Source: a virus. Taken from it: DNA of 29,489 nucleotides. Within the stretch, counting starts at the first letter, position 1. Every line of letters starts with the position of its first letter. Below are positions 2 to 18,794 of this stretch, piece after piece. The translations under genes were made by a program, and so were the position numbers. The stretch is taken from the IMG/VR virus record IMGVR_UViG_3300044970_000716, positions 1 through 29,489 of that record, one strand, 5' to 3'. The notes beneath the pieces were generated by a model, which made no database searches, was not told the origin of the DNA, and saw nothing but the letters and a program-made list of their open reading frames with translations.

Positions 2-211
2 CAAACCGGAACCACCAAGGCGCTGCCGTATGTGCTTTCTTTCTGGGGTACTGGCACGATTACGCTGACTGGTACATCAACCGCCGGGCCGTTGGTTGGT
101 AATGGCGCTGACAATCGCGTCTATCTGGAGTTCACACCGACGGCTGGAACATTAACCGTAACCGTCAGCGGAACCGTGAGCAAGGCGCAGTTGGAGATTG
201 CCAATGAGTAA
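2..211 (+). CDS. C-terminal part of a phage structural (head/tail spike-type) protein, cut by the window edge and by an endonuclease insertion
   Basis: This open frame enters from the left edge and ends at TAA 209-211, giving 69 visible residues. It is rich in Thr, Gly and Val and ends in a beta-strand pattern finishing KAQLEIANE. The xxAQLE-hydrophobic pattern is typical of the carbohydrate-binding-like beta sandwich in phage spike, fibre and decoration proteins, where it is usually followed by a TxYQRV segment. That continuation is absent here but appears as the first residues of the ORF at 1004 (ATPTGYQRV), which is in the same reading frame. I infer that the two are halves of one ancestral gene separated by the GIY-YIG gene. 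Start and N-terminal domain lie outside the window. Confidence 0.75.
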   Translation, partial: QTGTTKALPYVLSFWGTGTITLTGTSTAGPLVGNGADNRVYLEFTPTAGTLTVTVSGTVSKAQLEIANE

Positions 212-1004
212 TTTTTCTAACATGTCTGGCGTTTACCGGATTACTTGTAAACCAACTGGCAACATCTATATCGGCAGCGCACACAACTTCAAGCGCCGAT
301 GGAAACACCACAAGTTTCAGTTGAAACGCGGTTCGCACGACTCCAAGTACATGCAGCATTCTTGGCGCAAATATGGCGCAGAAGCGTTTGCATTTGAAGT
401 GCTGGTGGTGTGCGACAAGTCGCATGTGCTGATGTATGAGCAGATTTTCCTTGACGCGCTGAGTCCGGCGTTCAACACCTGCAAGATGGCGGGAAGCTGC
501 GTTGGCGTAAAGCACACAGAAGCAACTCGCGAAAACTTCAGCAAGGCTCAGCGCAGTTGGCGCAAGAAGTATGAGTGGAATGGCGAAATGCTGTGCCTGT
601 CGGATATAGCCGAGAAAGAAGGGTTTCCGTACAGACTACTGCTTTCCCGTGTCCTGTCTCTTGGCAAAACGCCGCAGGAAGCCATTGCAATGGGCGACGA
701 GGCCCGCGAACGACTGTATGAGCATGATGGCCGGTTTCAGCGCATTAAAGAATTGGCGGCTGAATTTGGAGTGCATCAGGCAAAGTTGCGGCATTACCTT
801 GATCGCGGGCTGAGCATCAAAGAGGCAAAGCACGAAATCGTTTGCTCTGATAAGCGGATGTCTCTGGCTGAACTGTGCAGACTGAACAGCGCCAACCTGC
901 AAACCATTAAATCACGCATTCAGAATGGTGCTTGCGTTATGGCTGCGATAACAACGCCGCCAAGACGAATGGACAACGCATGGCGATATAAGGAGTCCAC
1001 GTAA
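204..1004 (+). CDS. GIY-YIG family homing endonuclease
   Basis: The protein has 266 residues. The N-terminal ~95 residues carry the GIY-YIG nuclease signature: GVY near residue 10, YIG about ten residues later, an Arg-rich helix (FKRRWKHH), a later Glu in MYEQ and an Asn in FNTC. The rest looks like three tandem DNA-contacting helix-turn-helix modules: CLSDIAEKEGFPY, RIKELAAEFGVHQ and SLAELCRLNSANL. I start it at ATG 204, not the in-frame TTG 198, because GGAG at 193-196 lies seven bases upstream; this site is in the last codons of the preceding structural frame. The stop TAA 1002-1004 overlaps the next ATG. Such enzymes cut a specific DNA site and spread their own gene by repair. No intron core fits around it. 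Confidence 0.9.
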   Translation: MSNFSNMSGVYRITCKPTGNIYIGSAHNFKRRWKHHKFQLKRGSHDSKYMQHSWRKYGAEAFAFEVLVVCDKSHVLMYEQIFLDALSPAFNTCKMAGSCVGVKHTEATRENFSKAQRSWRKKYEWNGEMLCLSDIAEKEGFPYRLLLSRVLSLGKTPQEAIAMGDEARERLYEHDGRFQRIKELAAEFGVHQAKLRHYLDRGLSIKEAKHEIVCSDKRMSLAELCRLNSANLQTIKSRIQNGACVMAAITTPPRRMDNAWRYKEST

Positions 1005-1609
1005 TGGCTACACCAACAGGTTATCAGCGCGTCACAACCGCAACTGATTACGATGTGTCGGCGTATCAAATCCATCTGCGCTTCGACGGCGTAGACGATT
1101 TCCTTGTCACAAACAGCATCGACTTCACCGCCACGGACAAGGTGATGGTGGCGGCGGGTGTGCGGAAGTTGAGTGATGCTGCGACGGCGTGTTTAGCGGA
1201 ACTGTCTGCAATTTACTCGTCAAATAACGGCGCATTCCTGTTTGCTGCGCCAGCAGTTAATGGTTTGCCTCGCTACGATTGGTACTCGCGTGGAACATTG
1301 ACAGCCGACACACATACGGCGTCGTCACATGCGGCTCCAGTTACAAGCATTTTATCCGCGCAAGGGAACATCTCCGGCGACTCCGCAATCCTGCGTGTCA
1401 ACGGAACCCAAGCCGCATCCAGCACAACAGACCAAGGCACAGGCAACTACGGCAACTACCCGCTCTACATCGGCAGACGCGCTGGCACTTCGGTGCCATT
1501 CAACGGCCATTTGTACTCGCTAATCATTCGCGGCGCTGCATCTACGGATTCGCAGATTGCCAGCGTGGAGCGGTATATCAACGGCAAGACCAAGGCTTAT
1601 ACAACATGA
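1004..1609 (+). CDS. Lectin/LamG-like virion protein, downstream half of a split structural gene
   Basis: 201 residues with the pattern of a concanavalin A/LamG-like jelly roll: LRFDGVDDFLVT near residues 25-36, a SIDFTATDKV strand, a LRVNGT turn near 130 and PLYIGRR plus FNGHLYSLIIRG near 150-175. Domains of this kind sit on phage heads or fibres and bind glycans or decorate the particle. The first residues (ATPTGYQRVTTATDYDV) look like the inside of a protein, not a natural N-terminus, and complete the truncated frame ending at 211 in the same phase. Translation restarts at ATG 1004 behind AAGGAG 990-995, which lies in the last codons of the endonuclease gene. Its end overlaps the next gene by ATGA. 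Confidence 0.75.
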   Translation: MATPTGYQRVTTATDYDVSAYQIHLRFDGVDDFLVTNSIDFTATDKVMVAAGVRKLSDAATACLAELSAIYSSNNGAFLFAAPAVNGLPRYDWYSRGTLTADTHTASSHAAPVTSILSAQGNISGDSAILRVNGTQAASSTTDQGTGNYGNYPLYIGRRAGTSVPFNGHLYSLIIRGAASTDSQIASVERYINGKTKAYTT

Positions 1610-1803
1610 TTTACAAACTACCAGAAGGTACTTTTGTTATATCAGACGGCGGTACATGGTTGCCGGGTGTCTATGAAACTGAACAAGTCGCGCAAGCTGC
1701 GATTGATATGCATGATGATTCGCTATATGCGCTGTGGGAGTCCGTTCTCGCAGCAGGACGAGACACAATCACGGCACAAGATTTGTGGAAACAACAGAAA
1801 TGA
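1606..1803 (+). CDS. Small conserved-type phage protein of unknown function
   Basis: 65 residues, starting at ATG 1606 in an ATGA overlap with the preceding stop. The upstream in-frame sequence that would extend it runs antiphase through the lectin gene and is not used. It is acidic, with no membrane segment or catalytic motif that I recognise. The WLPGVYETEQVAQAA segment suggests a short beta hairpin followed by a helix, as in small accessory proteins beside phage surface genes. The coupling at both ends (ATGA again at 1800) argues that it is expressed with the structural operon. Function unknown. Confidence 0.7.
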   Translation: MIYKLPEGTFVISDGGTWLPGVYETEQVAQAAIDMHDDSLYALWESVLAAGRDTITAQDLWKQQK

Positions 1804-2180
1804 CACAGTGGATACACCGCAACATCATCGTGCCAGCAGCAGTAGTTGAGCAGGCGCGGCAGATGTGCGCAGGCATTCCCGGAGGTGATGGCATGTTCAC
1901 GGCTCCGTTGTCAGCTGATGGCGCAGAGCCTGCCACGCATTACATATCCGCAGGTCTGATCTGGCCGCAGTTTGCAGACATGCTGCCACTCGACGTACCG
2001 GCCATGGATGATGCCGATGCGCATCGCATACCAGGCGATGCGGCCAAGGCAGCAGAAGCTTTGCCCGGTGCGCCTGTTGAGGCAATACAGGCATTGCTTG
2101 CTGTGGTAACTGTGACCGATGGCGATCCATTTACTACGCTGGATAGAATGGGGCTGCAACTGGTGGGGCCAACTGAATGA
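1800..2180 (+). CDS. Hypothetical phage protein between surface and connector genes
   Basis: 126 residues beginning MTQWIHRNIIVPAA at ATG 1800, which overlaps the upstream TGA (ATGA). It is acidic and Ala/Pro-rich, with no transmembrane stretch and no catalytic motif that I can name. It lies directly upstream of the DUF4054-type connector gene with another ATGA overlap at 2177, so it is probably made with the neck proteins. Proteins of this size and composition are common in this position in contractile-tail phages, but I cannot assign a role. Confidence 0.7.
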   Translation: MTQWIHRNIIVPAAVVEQARQMCAGIPGGDGMFTAPLSADGAEPATHYISAGLIWPQFADMLPLDVPAMDDADAHRIPGDAAKAAEALPGAPVEAIQALLAVVTVTDGDPFTTLDRMGLQLVGPTE

Positions 2181-4126: not shown

Positions 4127-4665
4127 ATACCATTAAAGGCAAGCTATATGCGCTCATCAAGGCGCAGATCGGATCGGAAACGCTGATCTTCGCTGACCAG
4201 AATGCACCGAGGCCATCATTGCCGTACTGGACAATGCGCCCTGCATCCATTCGCAAGATCGGGAGCGAGTATTACAGCCAAGGTGTGAATGTGTCTTATC
4301 AGCAAACCGTGCTGGGTGTGCGTGAGGCCACGTTGCAATTGCAAAGAGTGGGCGCAGATTCGGATATCAAAATGATTGATCTGCGCGATAATCTGGCAAA
4401 GACTACTGCAAATGAGGCTTGGCAGGTGCAGAAAATTGCAATTGCCAATATTGGAGAAATTGCCGCAATTCCTTATTTGCTGGACGATGACGCATTTGAG
4501 CCTCGCGCAGCACTGGACATCATTATCAGATTCGGCGCATCGTTGCTGGATACTACGGGTGGCATTGATCAAGTAGGCATTGATGCCGAATATGTGACCA
4601 ATCAAGGCGCAGACATGACGCAAACCAATACAGGACTTGCGGAAACCATAGTCGCAACATTATAA
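4123..4665 (+). CDS. Neck/tail terminator-like protein (LIC_12616-type)
   Basis: 180 residues. It opens with a helix (IKGKLYALIKAQI), then IFADQNAPRPSLPYWTMRP. A conserved P-R-P-x-x-P-Y near residues 29-36 is typical of phage neck terminator proteins that cap the tail tube and sheath at the head end. It continues as a mixed alpha/beta protein with DLRDNLAK and a C-terminal beta region rich in Asp and Gly. It lies directly before the sheath gene, the usual place for a tail terminator. No other fold is suggested by the sequence. Confidence 0.7.
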   Translation: MNTIKGKLYALIKAQIGSETLIFADQNAPRPSLPYWTMRPASIRKIGSEYYSQGVNVSYQQTVLGVREATLQLQRVGADSDIKMIDLRDNLAKTTANEAWQVQKIAIANIGEIAAIPYLLDDDAFEPRAALDIIIRFGASLLDTTGGIDQVGIDAEYVTNQGADMTQTNTGLAETIVATL

Positions 4666-4689
4666 TTTCTGCTATTAGGAGAAAACTTT

Positions 4690-6027
4690 ATGGCAACACT
4701 TGACGATATCGTAAGCGTACAAATTGCGCTGCAAACAACTGGCGTGGTGCGCGGCGATTTCGGCACTCCGATGATTGTTGCGCCGCTCATGACCTTCCCG
4801 GAGCGGGTGCGGGTCTACACCAGCTACGCAGCCGCCGCAGAGGATGATCTGCCGCCCAATGTGCTGACCGCGCTTTCTGATTGCTTCGGCCAGATTCCGC
4901 GCCCACGGCAGGTTAAGGTTGGCCGTCGTGCCGTGCTGACCGGCGTGATTAACGTGGCAAGCTTGATCGCTTCCGGCACTTACTCGCTGAAAGTGACCGG
5001 AGCAGTAACCAATACCTACAGTTACACGGCAGACGCAACACCCACAGCCGCAGAGATTGCAACCGGCCTTGCGCTGGCGATTACCAGCGACGCCGACGAA
5101 GAAATCACAGCAACAGCAGTAGGCGATACTGTTGAGGTGGCATGGATTGGCGCTGCTGGCGCAATTGAGCTGCTCAATGGCCTGTCCTGGGGCGCTATCA
5201 GCCCGCTGGCTGCTGCTACGGCCACTGCCGACGATCTTACCGCCATTGCCGATGAAGACAATAGCTGGTATGGCCTGGTAATGGTTGAGCGTGTGAAGCA
5301 GACTCAATTGGATGCTGCGGAGTGGGTAGAAGCTAACGACAAGCTGTTCATTACGGCCACGGCAGAAGCCGACGTACTGAATGCTGGCGTTACTACCGAT
5401 CTGATTAGCGTTCTTAGCGATTCGCGCTACTACCGCACGGCTGTGCTGTACCACACCAATGCGGCCACTGAATACCCGGATGCGGCGTGGGCTGGCCGCG
5501 TGTTCACGATCAAGCCTGGCGCTGAAACGTGGGCACTGAAGCAGCTTGCCAGCGTTACGCCTTCCAATCTGACCGCTACGCAGAAGCAGACGATCACGAA
5601 CAAGGGCGGCAACACTTTTGAGTTTTACCAGACACAGATTGCGCTTACCGCTCCGGGCAAGGTGGCTTCCGGTGAATGGATTGATGTGATTCGCTTCCGC
5701 GACTGGCTGAAAGACACCATCCAAACCAACATGGCGCAGATGATGATCAATCGCGACAAGGTGCCGTATACCGATGCGGGCATTGCGCTGTGCGTGAACA
5801 ATCTACGCAAGTCACTGCAAGAGGGTCAAACGGCTGGTGGCATTGCGCCGGATGAGTTGGATTCAAATGGTGATTCTGTGCCGGGCTTTGTAATCACTTA
5901 TCCGCGATCTGTTGAGATTGCGCCAAATATCAAGGCTTCGCGTGTTCTGGAATTGGGCTTTGTGGCCCGCATTGCTGGCGCAATTCATATGGTAGAGATT
6001 AACGGCGCACTGGCCTACGAACTGTAA
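4690..6027 (+). CDS. Tail sheath protein (DUF3383 family)
   Basis: 445 residues, the size expected for DUF3383 contractile sheath subunits. The N-terminus (DDIVSVQIALQTTGV, then FGTPMIVAP) and the VRVYTSYAAAAEDDLPPN segment fit the family. A beta module at about residues 95-165 (TYSYTADATPTAAEIATGLA) looks inserted into the sheath core and recurs in the gpJ-like protein at 11569. The C-terminal half (RFRDWLKDTIQ, then MINRDKVPYTDAGI) is the part that contacts neighbouring subunits in related sheaths. A good ribosome binding site, AGGAG 4677-4681, precedes ATG 4690. It is followed by the tube gene, as in other contractile tails. Confidence 0.9.
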   Translation: MATLDDIVSVQIALQTTGVVRGDFGTPMIVAPLMTFPERVRVYTSYAAAAEDDLPPNVLTALSDCFGQIPRPRQVKVGRRAVLTGVINVASLIASGTYSLKVTGAVTNTYSYTADATPTAAEIATGLALAITSDADEEITATAVGDTVEVAWIGAAGAIELLNGLSWGAISPLAAATATADDLTAIADEDNSWYGLVMVERVKQTQLDAAEWVEANDKLFITATAEADVLNAGVTTDLISVLSDSRYYRTAVLYHTNAATEYPDAAWAGRVFTIKPGAETWALKQLASVTPSNLTATQKQTITNKGGNTFEFYQTQIALTAPGKVASGEWIDVIRFRDWLKDTIQTNMAQMMINRDKVPYTDAGIALCVNNLRKSLQEGQTAGGIAPDELDSNGDSVPGFVITYPRSVEIAPNIKASRVLELGFVARIAGAIHMVEINGALAYEL

Positions 6028-6040
6028 TTAAGGGGAAAAT

Positions 6041-6481
6041 ATGACAGCAACACTTACAGGCTCTTATGACCCGGCGCAGGTGATCGTCACCGTTGGCGGT
6101 GTCATTGTGAGCGGTTTTTCTGACGGCGACTCGATTGTTGCGCGGCGCGACGAGGATATGTACTTCACCCGCGTCGGCACTGACGGCGGCGTGGCACGCG
6201 CCAGAAACGCTAACAAGATGGGCGAGTTTGAATTCAAGCTCTTGCAAACCAGCACAGCCAATGATCTGCTTTCAACCTTGCTTGCAACCGACGATCTGAC
6301 AAACGACGGCTTGGCCGTAGTGCCAATCTCGATTGTTGACGGCTCTGGCCGTTCTCTGGCCGCAGCTACGCAGTGCTGGATTAAGACCATCCCTGAAGCC
6401 ATCTTCGGCAAAGAAGTGAGCGAACGCACATGGGTATTCAGTGCGGCAGACTTGCGTATCTTCCACGGCGGCGGGCAATAA
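6041..6481 (+). CDS. Tail tube protein (DUF3277 family)
   Basis: 146 residues forming an all-beta protein: YDPAQVIVTVGG at residues 8-19, SGFSDGDSIVARR, then MYFTRVGTDGG and NKMGEFEFKLLQTS. This is the pattern of DUF3277 inner-tube subunits, which stack as hexamers inside the sheath. It lies directly after the DUF3383 sheath, its usual partner. AGGGGAAAA just upstream of ATG 6041 is a strong ribosome binding site, fitting a protein needed in many copies. Confidence 0.9.
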   Translation: MTATLTGSYDPAQVIVTVGGVIVSGFSDGDSIVARRDEDMYFTRVGTDGGVARARNANKMGEFEFKLLQTSTANDLLSTLLATDDLTNDGLAVVPISIVDGSGRSLAAATQCWIKTIPEAIFGKEVSERTWVFSAADLRIFHGGGQ

Positions 6482-6490
6482 CAAAGGAAC

Positions 6491-6504
6491 GGGGCTTCGG
6501 CCCC
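6491..6504 (+). promoter_or_regulatory. GGGGC-UUCG-GCCCC hairpin between tail tube and tail chaperone genes
   Basis: A perfect 5-bp GC stem closed by a UUCG tetraloop lies between the tube stop (6479-6481) and the chaperone start (6515). There is no following U-run, so it is not a normal intrinsic terminator. AAAGGA (6483-6488) upstream is the only good ribosome binding site for ATG 6515. It lies 26 bases away in sequence but about 12 if the hairpin folds. The structure could therefore bring the site close to the start, or it could protect the 3' end of tube mRNA. Confidence 0.6.
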
Positions 6505-6514
6505 GAATTAACAC

Positions 6515-6970
6515 ATGAAGCAAGAGACATTTATAGTAGGTGGCCGTGAGTTTACTTGCTGCGCCATGAATGCGTTTCAGGCAAACAAGCTCTTGCTGCG
6601 TTTGCAAAAGGTCATTGTTCCGATCTTCGGCGCGATGGCTGGCGGCACAAAGAATATTGGCGATGTGGACGTTAAAGAGGCCGCAGGGGTCATTGCAGCA
6701 AACATTGACGAAAGCGTAATTGATGAAATTGTGCTGCCGATGTTCGCGGCTTCCCGCGTGTACTGTATTGAAAACAAAAAGTTTATCAAAGGTGAAACAG
6801 ATATTGACCAGTGCTTCACGGTCGATACTTTGTTTGATTTCTATGAGCTTGTTTTCCTGGTAGCCCGTTTTCAGTTTGCGCCTTTTTTTCAGGGGCTGGC
6901 CGGGAGATTTGGCAATCTAATCGACGCGCCGAAAACGCAAAAATCCCCGGTCAGCTCAAAGACGAAGTAA
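6515..6970 (+). CDS. Tail assembly chaperone, short (zero-frame) form
   Basis: 151 residues. It lies between tube and tape measure genes, the standard position for the tail assembly chaperone that coats the tape measure during tube assembly. The sequence is mostly helical (MNAFQANKLLLRLQKVIVPI; SVIDEIVLPMFAASRV), and F-x-V-G-G-R-E-F at the N-terminus is typical of phage chaperones of this kind. The zero-frame tail after the T7 slippery run is Lys/Ser-rich (DAPKTQKSPVSSKTK) and looks unstructured. A second open frame begins in the -1 phase exactly over its 3' end, as in lambda G/GT-type arrangements. Confidence 0.8.
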   Translation: MKQETFIVGGREFTCCAMNAFQANKLLLRLQKVIVPIFGAMAGGTKNIGDVDVKEAAGVIAANIDESVIDEIVLPMFAASRVYCIENKKFIKGETDIDQCFTVDTLFDFYELVFLVARFQFAPFFQGLAGRFGNLIDAPKTQKSPVSSKTK

Positions 6971-17881: not shown

Positions 17882-18237
17882 TGCAAGGCGTTGTTATGGC
17901 GTGGGGATACATGCTCTGGGCGGTGAATATGTTGTGCGGCGCGCTGATTGTGCAGCACGCCATCTGCAATCTGTCACGTTGGAAATACACAATACGCAGC
18001 CTTGCCCTGTGGGGCAATGCGCTGATGCTGGGCGGCGGCTTGCGGGTATTGCTGGCGTTTGGCGCACACGAAAACCCCGGCTTCGGGGAAGTGCTTATCA
18101 ATCTCGGCGTGGCGCTGTTGAGCGTGCGAAGCATGCGGCGCATTTACCGGGAATATGCCGACGATCCGAATGGGTTGTGGTCGCATGCTAAAGCCGAAGC
18201 AAGGCGCATTTTTGAAATGATTAGGGCTGGAAAATGA
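17881..18237 (+). CDS. Membrane protein of lysis region, holin/antiholin candidate
   Basis: 118 residues from ATG 17881; a GTG at 17878 is also in frame. It has up to three hydrophobic stretches (VVMAWGYMLWAVNMLCGALIV; LALWGNALMLGGGLRVLLAF; EVLINLGVALLSV) and a highly charged C-terminal tail (RRIYREYADDPNG; KAEARRIFEMIRAGK). That topology is common among second lysis-region membrane proteins, such as antiholins. I do not recognise a named family. The ATGA overlap at its end leads into an HNH-like endonuclease gene that appears inserted ahead of the endolysin. Confidence 0.6.
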   Translation: MQGVVMAWGYMLWAVNMLCGALIVQHAICNLSRWKYTIRSLALWGNALMLGGGLRVLLAFGAHENPGFGEVLINLGVALLSVRSMRRIYREYADDPNGLWSHAKAEARRIFEMIRAGK

Positions 18238-18794
18238 ACATGACTCCAACAGCACGATCATCAAACGGAACGCCGCTTTTTCAAAACCATTGCCCAGATT
18301 GTGGCAAAAACAGAATGAGCGACAAGCGCAGGATTGGCAAACCGTGCATGGCGTGCGCAAACAAAAGGCGCGCAACTCACGGATTGGCTGGACATCCGCT
18401 TTACAAGCTGCTACAGGCAATTAGGGTTAGATGCAATTATCCGTCTGCCACTAATTATGCGTATTACGGCGGCCGCGGAATTTATGTCTGTGACGAATGG
18501 GAGTCAGATCCGCAAGCGTTTGTAGATTGGGCAACAGAAAACGGATATGAGAAAGGTCTAGAGCTTGATCGGATTGATGTCAATGGACCATATTCTCCAT
18601 CTAATTGCAGGTTTCTAGATCATGCGCAAAACAGCCAGTTGCGCCGTAATGCCCAGTGTGACATAGAAAAAGCAAAGCAAGTGAAGCGCGCTATAGGAGA
18701 AGGTAAATCTGTGAAGGATGCCGCTGTTCTGATAGGGGTGCCGTACATGGTTGCGTGGCACATCAGCAAGGGTAATACATGGAGAAATGCATGA
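18234..18794 (+). CDS. Zinc-ribbon HNH-like homing endonuclease
   Basis: 186 residues. A zinc ribbon at about 20-45 has CPDC and CMAC pairs. The core YYGGRGIYVCDEWES, with F-x-x-W, then LELDRIDVNGPYSPSNCRF, matches a large phage family of HNH-type endonucleases: G-R-G-I-x-V-C-x-x-W, then L-D-R-I-D-x-x-G-x-Y-x-P-x-N-C-R-[WF]. The C-terminus (GKSVKDAAVLIGVPYMVAWHISKGNTWR) is a helix-turn-helix used for DNA contact in such mobile genes. It lies between a membrane protein and the endolysin, probably a mobile insertion. It overlaps both neighbours by four bases, so lysis gene translation stays coupled. Confidence 0.8.
   Translation: MNMTPTARSSNGTPLFQNHCPDCGKNRMSDKRRIGKPCMACANKRRATHGLAGHPLYKLLQAIRVRCNYPSATNYAYYGGRGIYVCDEWESDPQAFVDWATENGYEKGLELDRIDVNGPYSPSNCRFLDHAQNSQLRRNAQCDIEKAKQVKRAIGEGKSVKDAAVLIGVPYMVAWHISKGNTWRNA

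Follow-up and report, generated by a model that had tools for sequence, protein, structure and literature searches.

Introduction

The closest described systems are phage genes-in-pieces, in which a coding region is divided by a homing endonuclease gene. In Aeromonas phage Aeh1, a ribonucleotide reductase gene is arranged as nrdA-a, mobE and nrdA-b, and a review of T4-like phages reports that the split gene yields a functional enzyme (Friedrich et al. 2007, as summarised in PMC2988022). The same review lists a split topoisomerase subunit, encoded by gene 60 with mobA in phage T4, and a split DNA polymerase, encoded as 43A, seg43(25) and 43B in Aeromonas phage 25, for which it expresses doubt as to whether the endonuclease made the split or invaded it (PMC2988022).

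Here we analyse an IMG/VR virus fragment of 29,489 nucleotides, referred to as the window, whose first 1.6 kb hold three plus-strand genes with overlapping stops and starts. From its gene organisation, this locus is most likely a genes-in-pieces system like Aeh1 nrdA/mobE, with both halves predicted to be translated. As in Aeh1, a free-standing homing gene lies within a host gene, unaccompanied by an intron or intein, and two polypeptides are predicted. The endonucleases differ, however, MobE being an HNH enzyme and that of the window a GIY-YIG enzyme; moreover, the Aeh1 reductase is cut in a functionally critical region, whereas the putative surface gene described here, which carries a lectin domain, is cut at the linker between two domains. 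The Aeh1 product has been shown to function; that of the window locus is predicted. The coding region of T4 gene 60 is likewise divided by a free-standing endonuclease gene, which shares bases with the ORF before it, but there the endonuclease is of the HNH type and the host gene encodes an enzyme. Phage 25 gene 43 has a Seg-type gene (GIY-YIG, like segD) at the break, and raises the same question of whether the gene made or invaded the split; its host gene is different, and a related phage has an endonuclease-free split, whereas none was found among the relatives of the window gene. The window locus differs from the Aeh1 and T4 examples in its host gene, which encodes a lectin-domain surface protein, in the family of its endonuclease, in being broken within a linker and in that unrelated endonucleases occupy one codon.

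To our knowledge, the phage genes cut by a free-standing endonuclease form a short list, so far mostly of replication and nucleotide enzymes, which a lectin-domain surface gene would now join. A limited keyword search of the literature found no published split of a phage adhesin gene by an endonuclease.

Organisation of the split locus

The first gene in the window is the 3′ end of the upstream half of the putative adhesin gene (2–211, plus strand, from the ORF list), which terminates in TVSGTVSKAQLEIANE and a stop codon. The original prediction took this frame as the upstream piece; the frame is real, but it encodes only the last 69 of 428 residues, the gene being truncated by the start of the contig. 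The complete gene is found at 1446–2732 of L004, which is 99.97% identical to the window over 7606 nt. The second gene (204–1004, plus strand) encodes a GIY-YIG homing endonuclease of 266 residues, identified from Pfam, PHROGs, PDB entry 1mk0 and a homologue in another phage, L026. The third (1004–1609, plus strand) is the downstream half, 201 residues with a LamG (concanavalin-like lectin) domain, identified from Pfam and from its place at the C-terminal end of one continuous ORF in 127 relatives. The start of the endonuclease gene overlaps the stop of the upstream half (ATGAGTAA at 204–211), and the start of the LamG half overlaps the stop of the endonuclease gene (TAATG at 1002–1006). The downstream junction is also present in L005, a sequence from another metagenome that is identical to the window from position 635 onward, implying that the arrangement is not an accident of a single assembly.

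In L004 the 428-residue gene is preceded by genes for a major head protein (phrog_264, 3e-96), a 61-residue protein and an 87-residue protein whose family is labelled tail fibre (phrog_12296, 2.6e-20), and the LamG gene is followed by virion and neck genes. This position between the major head protein and the virion and neck genes, together with the lectin-like C-terminal domain, suggests that the split gene encodes a virion adhesin, which may or may not be a spike as the original prediction had it.

The endonuclease and the absence of an intron or intein

The ORF at 204–1004 matches the Pfam GIY-YIG family (8.3e-10) and phrog_314 (2e-22), with weak MerR matches and a helix-turn-helix-like C-terminal part. 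Like I-TevI and other phage GIY-YIG homing endonucleases, it has the catalytic domain by sequence, and its similarity to I-TevI (PDB 1mk0, E 4.4e-9) is confined to that domain; in contrast with I-TevI, the gene lies outside any intron, and its host gene and target differ. The window and L026 proteins are 52% identical over their full length, and the typical GIY-YIG residues Y11, Y22, R32, E79 and N91 are invariant between them, so that the conserved Tyr, Arg, Glu and Asn of the catalytic domain are all present.

Introns and inteins commonly carry homing endonucleases, and the title of Dassa et al. (2009), cited in PMC10448857, records split inteins in fractured genes. The length of the gap is also divisible by 3, as would suit a self-splicing group I intron housing the endonuclease, or a split intein carried by the two halves, either of which would give one joined protein. 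Such splicing is hardly credible here. Rfam searches of the window, L004 and L026 gave no intron match at the gathering score, and a permissive threshold added one weak, unrelated match outside the gap. The entire gap is coding and is conserved over its full length with L026, third codon positions being the most variable in every full 33-codon block, which leaves no room for an intron core. On the protein side, the upstream half extends no more than two to four residues beyond AQLE-x-x (in the window, two residues beyond those of the linker), and the LamG half begins with Met and linker residues. These are too few on both sides for either half of an intein, and no intein halves were found in Pfam and PHROGs scans. 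We therefore reject both the intron and the split intein, as the original prediction did, and the endonuclease gene stands alone at the break. Programmed bypass or frameshifting over the 804-nt gap was also considered and judged implausible.

Relatives carry one uninterrupted gene

Protein searches, three against IMG/VR and one against bacterial and archaeal genomes, yielded 136 distinct relatives of the LamG half. In 127 of these the gene is fused, six are cut by a contig end and three are split. The LamG frame runs on upstream without a stop in 126 relatives, and in L047 too if TGA is read as glycine; the median upstream extension, counting all relatives scored as fused, is 380 codons. L047 was considered as a fourth split case and rejected, as it is a single ORF under that reading. 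The three split loci are those of the window's phage, L026 and L076, and an endonuclease gene occupies the gap in every one. (L076 was scored as fused by the script, its best match being the second part of its LamG domain, inside the downstream gene.) No split gene free of an endonuclease, the case that would have counted against the original prediction, was found among the 136 relatives, every complete endonuclease-free relative being fused.

The closest intact genes, judged by the upstream domain (L100, L107, L118, L081 and L104; 63–66% identity), have this domain joined to LamG and are unbroken from AQLE, or its equivalent, to YQ. No near-identical allele of the window gene lacking the endonuclease was found, these five being the nearest intact genes. 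Among GenBank phages the LamG half has just two relatives, which are distant and have it in a fused gene. A DNA-pattern scan for starts of the form M-x-x-[PA]-T-x-YQRV returned ten stretches, the real relatives among which were the three known split loci.

The insertion point

The linker from AQLE to YQ is seven residues long in all 21 intact relatives in which it was compared, with the consensus [LTV]GSTATx; one further match to the pattern, in another frame, was excluded as a chance match. Of this linker, the split loci retain two residues behind AQLE in the upstream half and five ahead of YQ in the downstream half. Removal of 203–1006 from the window gives AQLE-IAATPTG-YQRV, removal of 5194–6000 from L026 gives AQLE-LVSTPTT-YQRV and removal of 5402–6296 from L076 gives AQLE-ETSVPTS-YQRV, each with a linker of seven residues. 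We draw the insert at 203–1006 (plus strand) because its excision restores this invariant length. So defined, it comprises 804 nt, the endonuclease ORF with one base before it and two after, and in L026 the GIY-YIG insert is likewise exactly the ORF plus 3 nt.

The original prediction was right that the gap is almost exactly the endonuclease ORF (204–1004 within 203–1006), and the continuity that it proposed, from AQLE to YQRV, is restored; its joined form, AQLEIANE+ATPTGYQRV, has nine linker residues, however, where the relatives have seven. Its call for fused relatives and a defined insertion point is answered by the 127 fused genes and by this linker, which fixes the site. The frames ending at 211 and starting at 1004 do share a phase (2 mod 3), with the GIY-YIG ORF lying where it was placed. 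Equal phase by itself is weak evidence, arising one time in three by chance, and it is not required, since the halves of L076 are in different phases; the real evidence is homology.

The two halves might instead have been separate genes ancestrally, with the endonuclease gene in the space between them and the fused genes elsewhere formed by later fusions. Each half encodes complete domains, phage adhesins are modular, and intergenic space is the usual location of free-standing homing genes. Against this, fused relatives outnumber split ones by 127 to 3, and excising the insert restores the exact seven-residue linker in all three split loci; we regard ancestral separation as highly improbable.

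The break lies between two domains

The downstream half matches Pfam Laminin_G_3 (6.9e-8; 33.2 bits, cut-off 27.6). For mapping the break point we used an AlphaFold model of the intact L104 protein (82 rows, pLDDT 86); a model of the window's LamG half, built from 8 sequences, was poor (pLDDT 42) and was left out. The L104 model has two well-folded domains joined by a low-confidence linker, residues 104–121. The break separates residues 101 and 102, where the last strand of the first domain ends, and adjoins this linker, beyond which is the LamG domain, with pLDDT about 95. Foldseek matches this domain to laminin LG domains, CBM40 and pentraxins, a generic fold match that is silent on ligand. 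Its assignment as a LamG, or concanavalin-like lectin, domain is thus given by the family profile and by the fold, the latter taken from the intact homologue. A sequence search of the PDB with the LamG profile gave only chance matches to antibodies. A break at the interdomain linker should, according to this model, leave two intact domains.

Translation signals

A putative ribosome-binding site for the endonuclease, GGAG, is formed by the GAG codon at 194–196 (plus strand) and the preceding G, 7 nt before the start, and is thus supplied by the Leu-Glu codons of the host gene. Its duplex energy is −6.4 kcal/mol in the window and −5.6 kcal/mol in L026, at equal spacing; this is moderate evidence, since 4.6% of random positions reach −6. 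For the LamG half, a Shine-Dalgarno sequence, AAGGAG (990–995, plus strand), lies 8 nt before the ATG at 1004, within Lys-Glu codons of the endonuclease gene. Its duplex energy is −8.8 kcal/mol, and about 0.6% of random positions reach −8. L026 has the same hexamer at the same spacing (−8.3 kcal/mol), and the adjacent C-terminal residues differ. With overlapping cistrons and these sites before the two downstream ones, each half should thus have a usable start; each piece has its own start and stop, and the constraint seen against L026 indicates that both are conserved.

A second and a third split locus

L026 comes from another metagenome and resembles the window in DNA only within the adhesin-endonuclease cassette. 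Its GC content is 61%, compared with 52% for the window, and its GIY-YIG gene, at 54% GC, is lower than its flanks (60–62%). This gene, a homologue of that in the window, lies at the same codon as the window insert. Both halves of the adhesin gene are open and conserved between the two (76% and 54% identity), with third codon positions varying most.

L076 was recovered from the metagenome that also yielded L026, and trees of either half place the two as sisters (support 89 and 94/91). The gap in L076 holds an antisense HNH gene (Pfam HNH_3, 1.2e-25; phrog_99, 8e-91) that is unrelated to the GIY-YIG gene and lies at the same codon. Either the same codon has been struck more than once, or one endonuclease has been swapped for another. 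The presence of an unrelated endonuclease at this codon raises the possibility that the adhesin gene was already split when the GIY-YIG gene arrived. An older event would then have split the gene once, the gap being colonised later by endonucleases of which that of the window is an occupant and not the cause. A single clade of the three split genes is not rejected by the upstream-domain tree (p-AU 0.23), the trees being compatible with one or with several origins of the split, and PMC2988022 records a like doubt about the split gene 43 in Aeromonas phage 25. An older split nevertheless appears unlikely: no endonuclease-free split gene occurs among the relatives, excision of the insert restores the linker in frame, and the GIY-YIG insert is exactly the ORF plus 3 nt in both phages, with no trace of an older spacer.

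We conclude, from what is directly observed (the intact relatives, the empty-site linker, the homologous occupant in a second phage, the overlapping cistrons and the Shine-Dalgarno site of the downstream half), that a free-standing GIY-YIG gene very probably split an intact adhesin gene at an interdomain linker into two cistrons, giving genes-in-pieces. This was also the reading of the original prediction, and the 127 fused relatives and the endonuclease gene in all three split loci support it, although another endonuclease may have been the first to split the gene in a given lineage. The GIY-YIG gene would have inserted at the linker between a β-sandwich domain and the C-terminal LamG domain, its enzyme cleaving the linker DNA in a co-infecting phage where it was still uninterrupted, and repair then copying the endonuclease gene in. 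With its third codon the insert would bring the upstream frame to a stop, and it would provide the second half with a start codon and a ribosome-binding site, so that the operon could yield three proteins. The two halves could then fold independently of each other and remain of use to the phage, most likely associating non-covalently. The two-piece virion protein of the original prediction is likely; both halves would be translated, come together and be built into the virion.

The limits of the insert are fixed almost to the base, as an ORF plus 3 nt with ribosome-binding sites borrowed in both directions, which offers a simple picture of a tolerated insertion. Two questions follow: can a host-recognition module function when made as a polypeptide of its own, and do homing endonucleases promote the exchange of such modules among phages? 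The finding of unrelated endonucleases at one codon bears on whether an existing split becomes a safe site for others. More tentatively, the linker may be a recurrent landing site for unrelated endonucleases, with the start signal in the GIY-YIG gene keeping the lectin domain translated and the splitting tolerated, or even aiding exchange of lectin domains.

Additional features of the split loci and the window

In L076, the sense strand opposite the antisense HNH gene has an open frame of 296 codons (5403–6293, plus strand) with no Pfam match. It starts at a GTG that overlaps the stop of the upstream half (GTGAGTAA) and terminates at a TAA immediately preceding the ATG of the downstream half. 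This frame could allow translational coupling of the two halves, or could be a by-product of the antisense gene. The LamG domain encoded by the downstream gene of L076 (6294–7466) itself contains an additional domain, inserted in frame after about residue 41 and ending in AQLETGSTATAFQN, the same linker motif; this is a nested domain insertion.

Each of the three split loci has a small gene following the LamG gene, with the shared motif PATHxISxGL (1800–2180, plus strand, in the window; 6612–6959 in L026; 7556–7894 in L076), while the surrounding phage genomes differ. No Pfam family was found for the window and L026 copies. Its product may assist the adhesin, as a partner or in assembly.

Elsewhere in the window, a helicase-methylase gene (29488–27224, minus strand) contains an insert at about 28990–28445 that holds an Endonuclease VII-type ORF in another frame (28961–28398, minus strand; Pfam, 6.8e-25). 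Relatives in S-CBS3 and the Manatee Spring phage are gapless, and residues 165 to about 346 of the query have no counterpart in them. The host frame remains open through the insert as a stretch rich in Lys, Gln, Thr and Ser; this may be chance, since 3–15% of random synonymous-codon trials also stay open. With an HNH endonuclease gene at 18234–18791 (plus strand; phrog_374, 1.6e-36), the number of endonuclease genes in the window comes to at least three, and they belong to different families.

Finally, the adhesin relative L047 (about 4500–6597) has TGA at glycine positions, with 11 in-frame TGA codons in its LamG part, and forms one ORF of 700 codons once these are read. The reading of TGA as glycine is the code of Gracilibacteria and Absconditabacteria.
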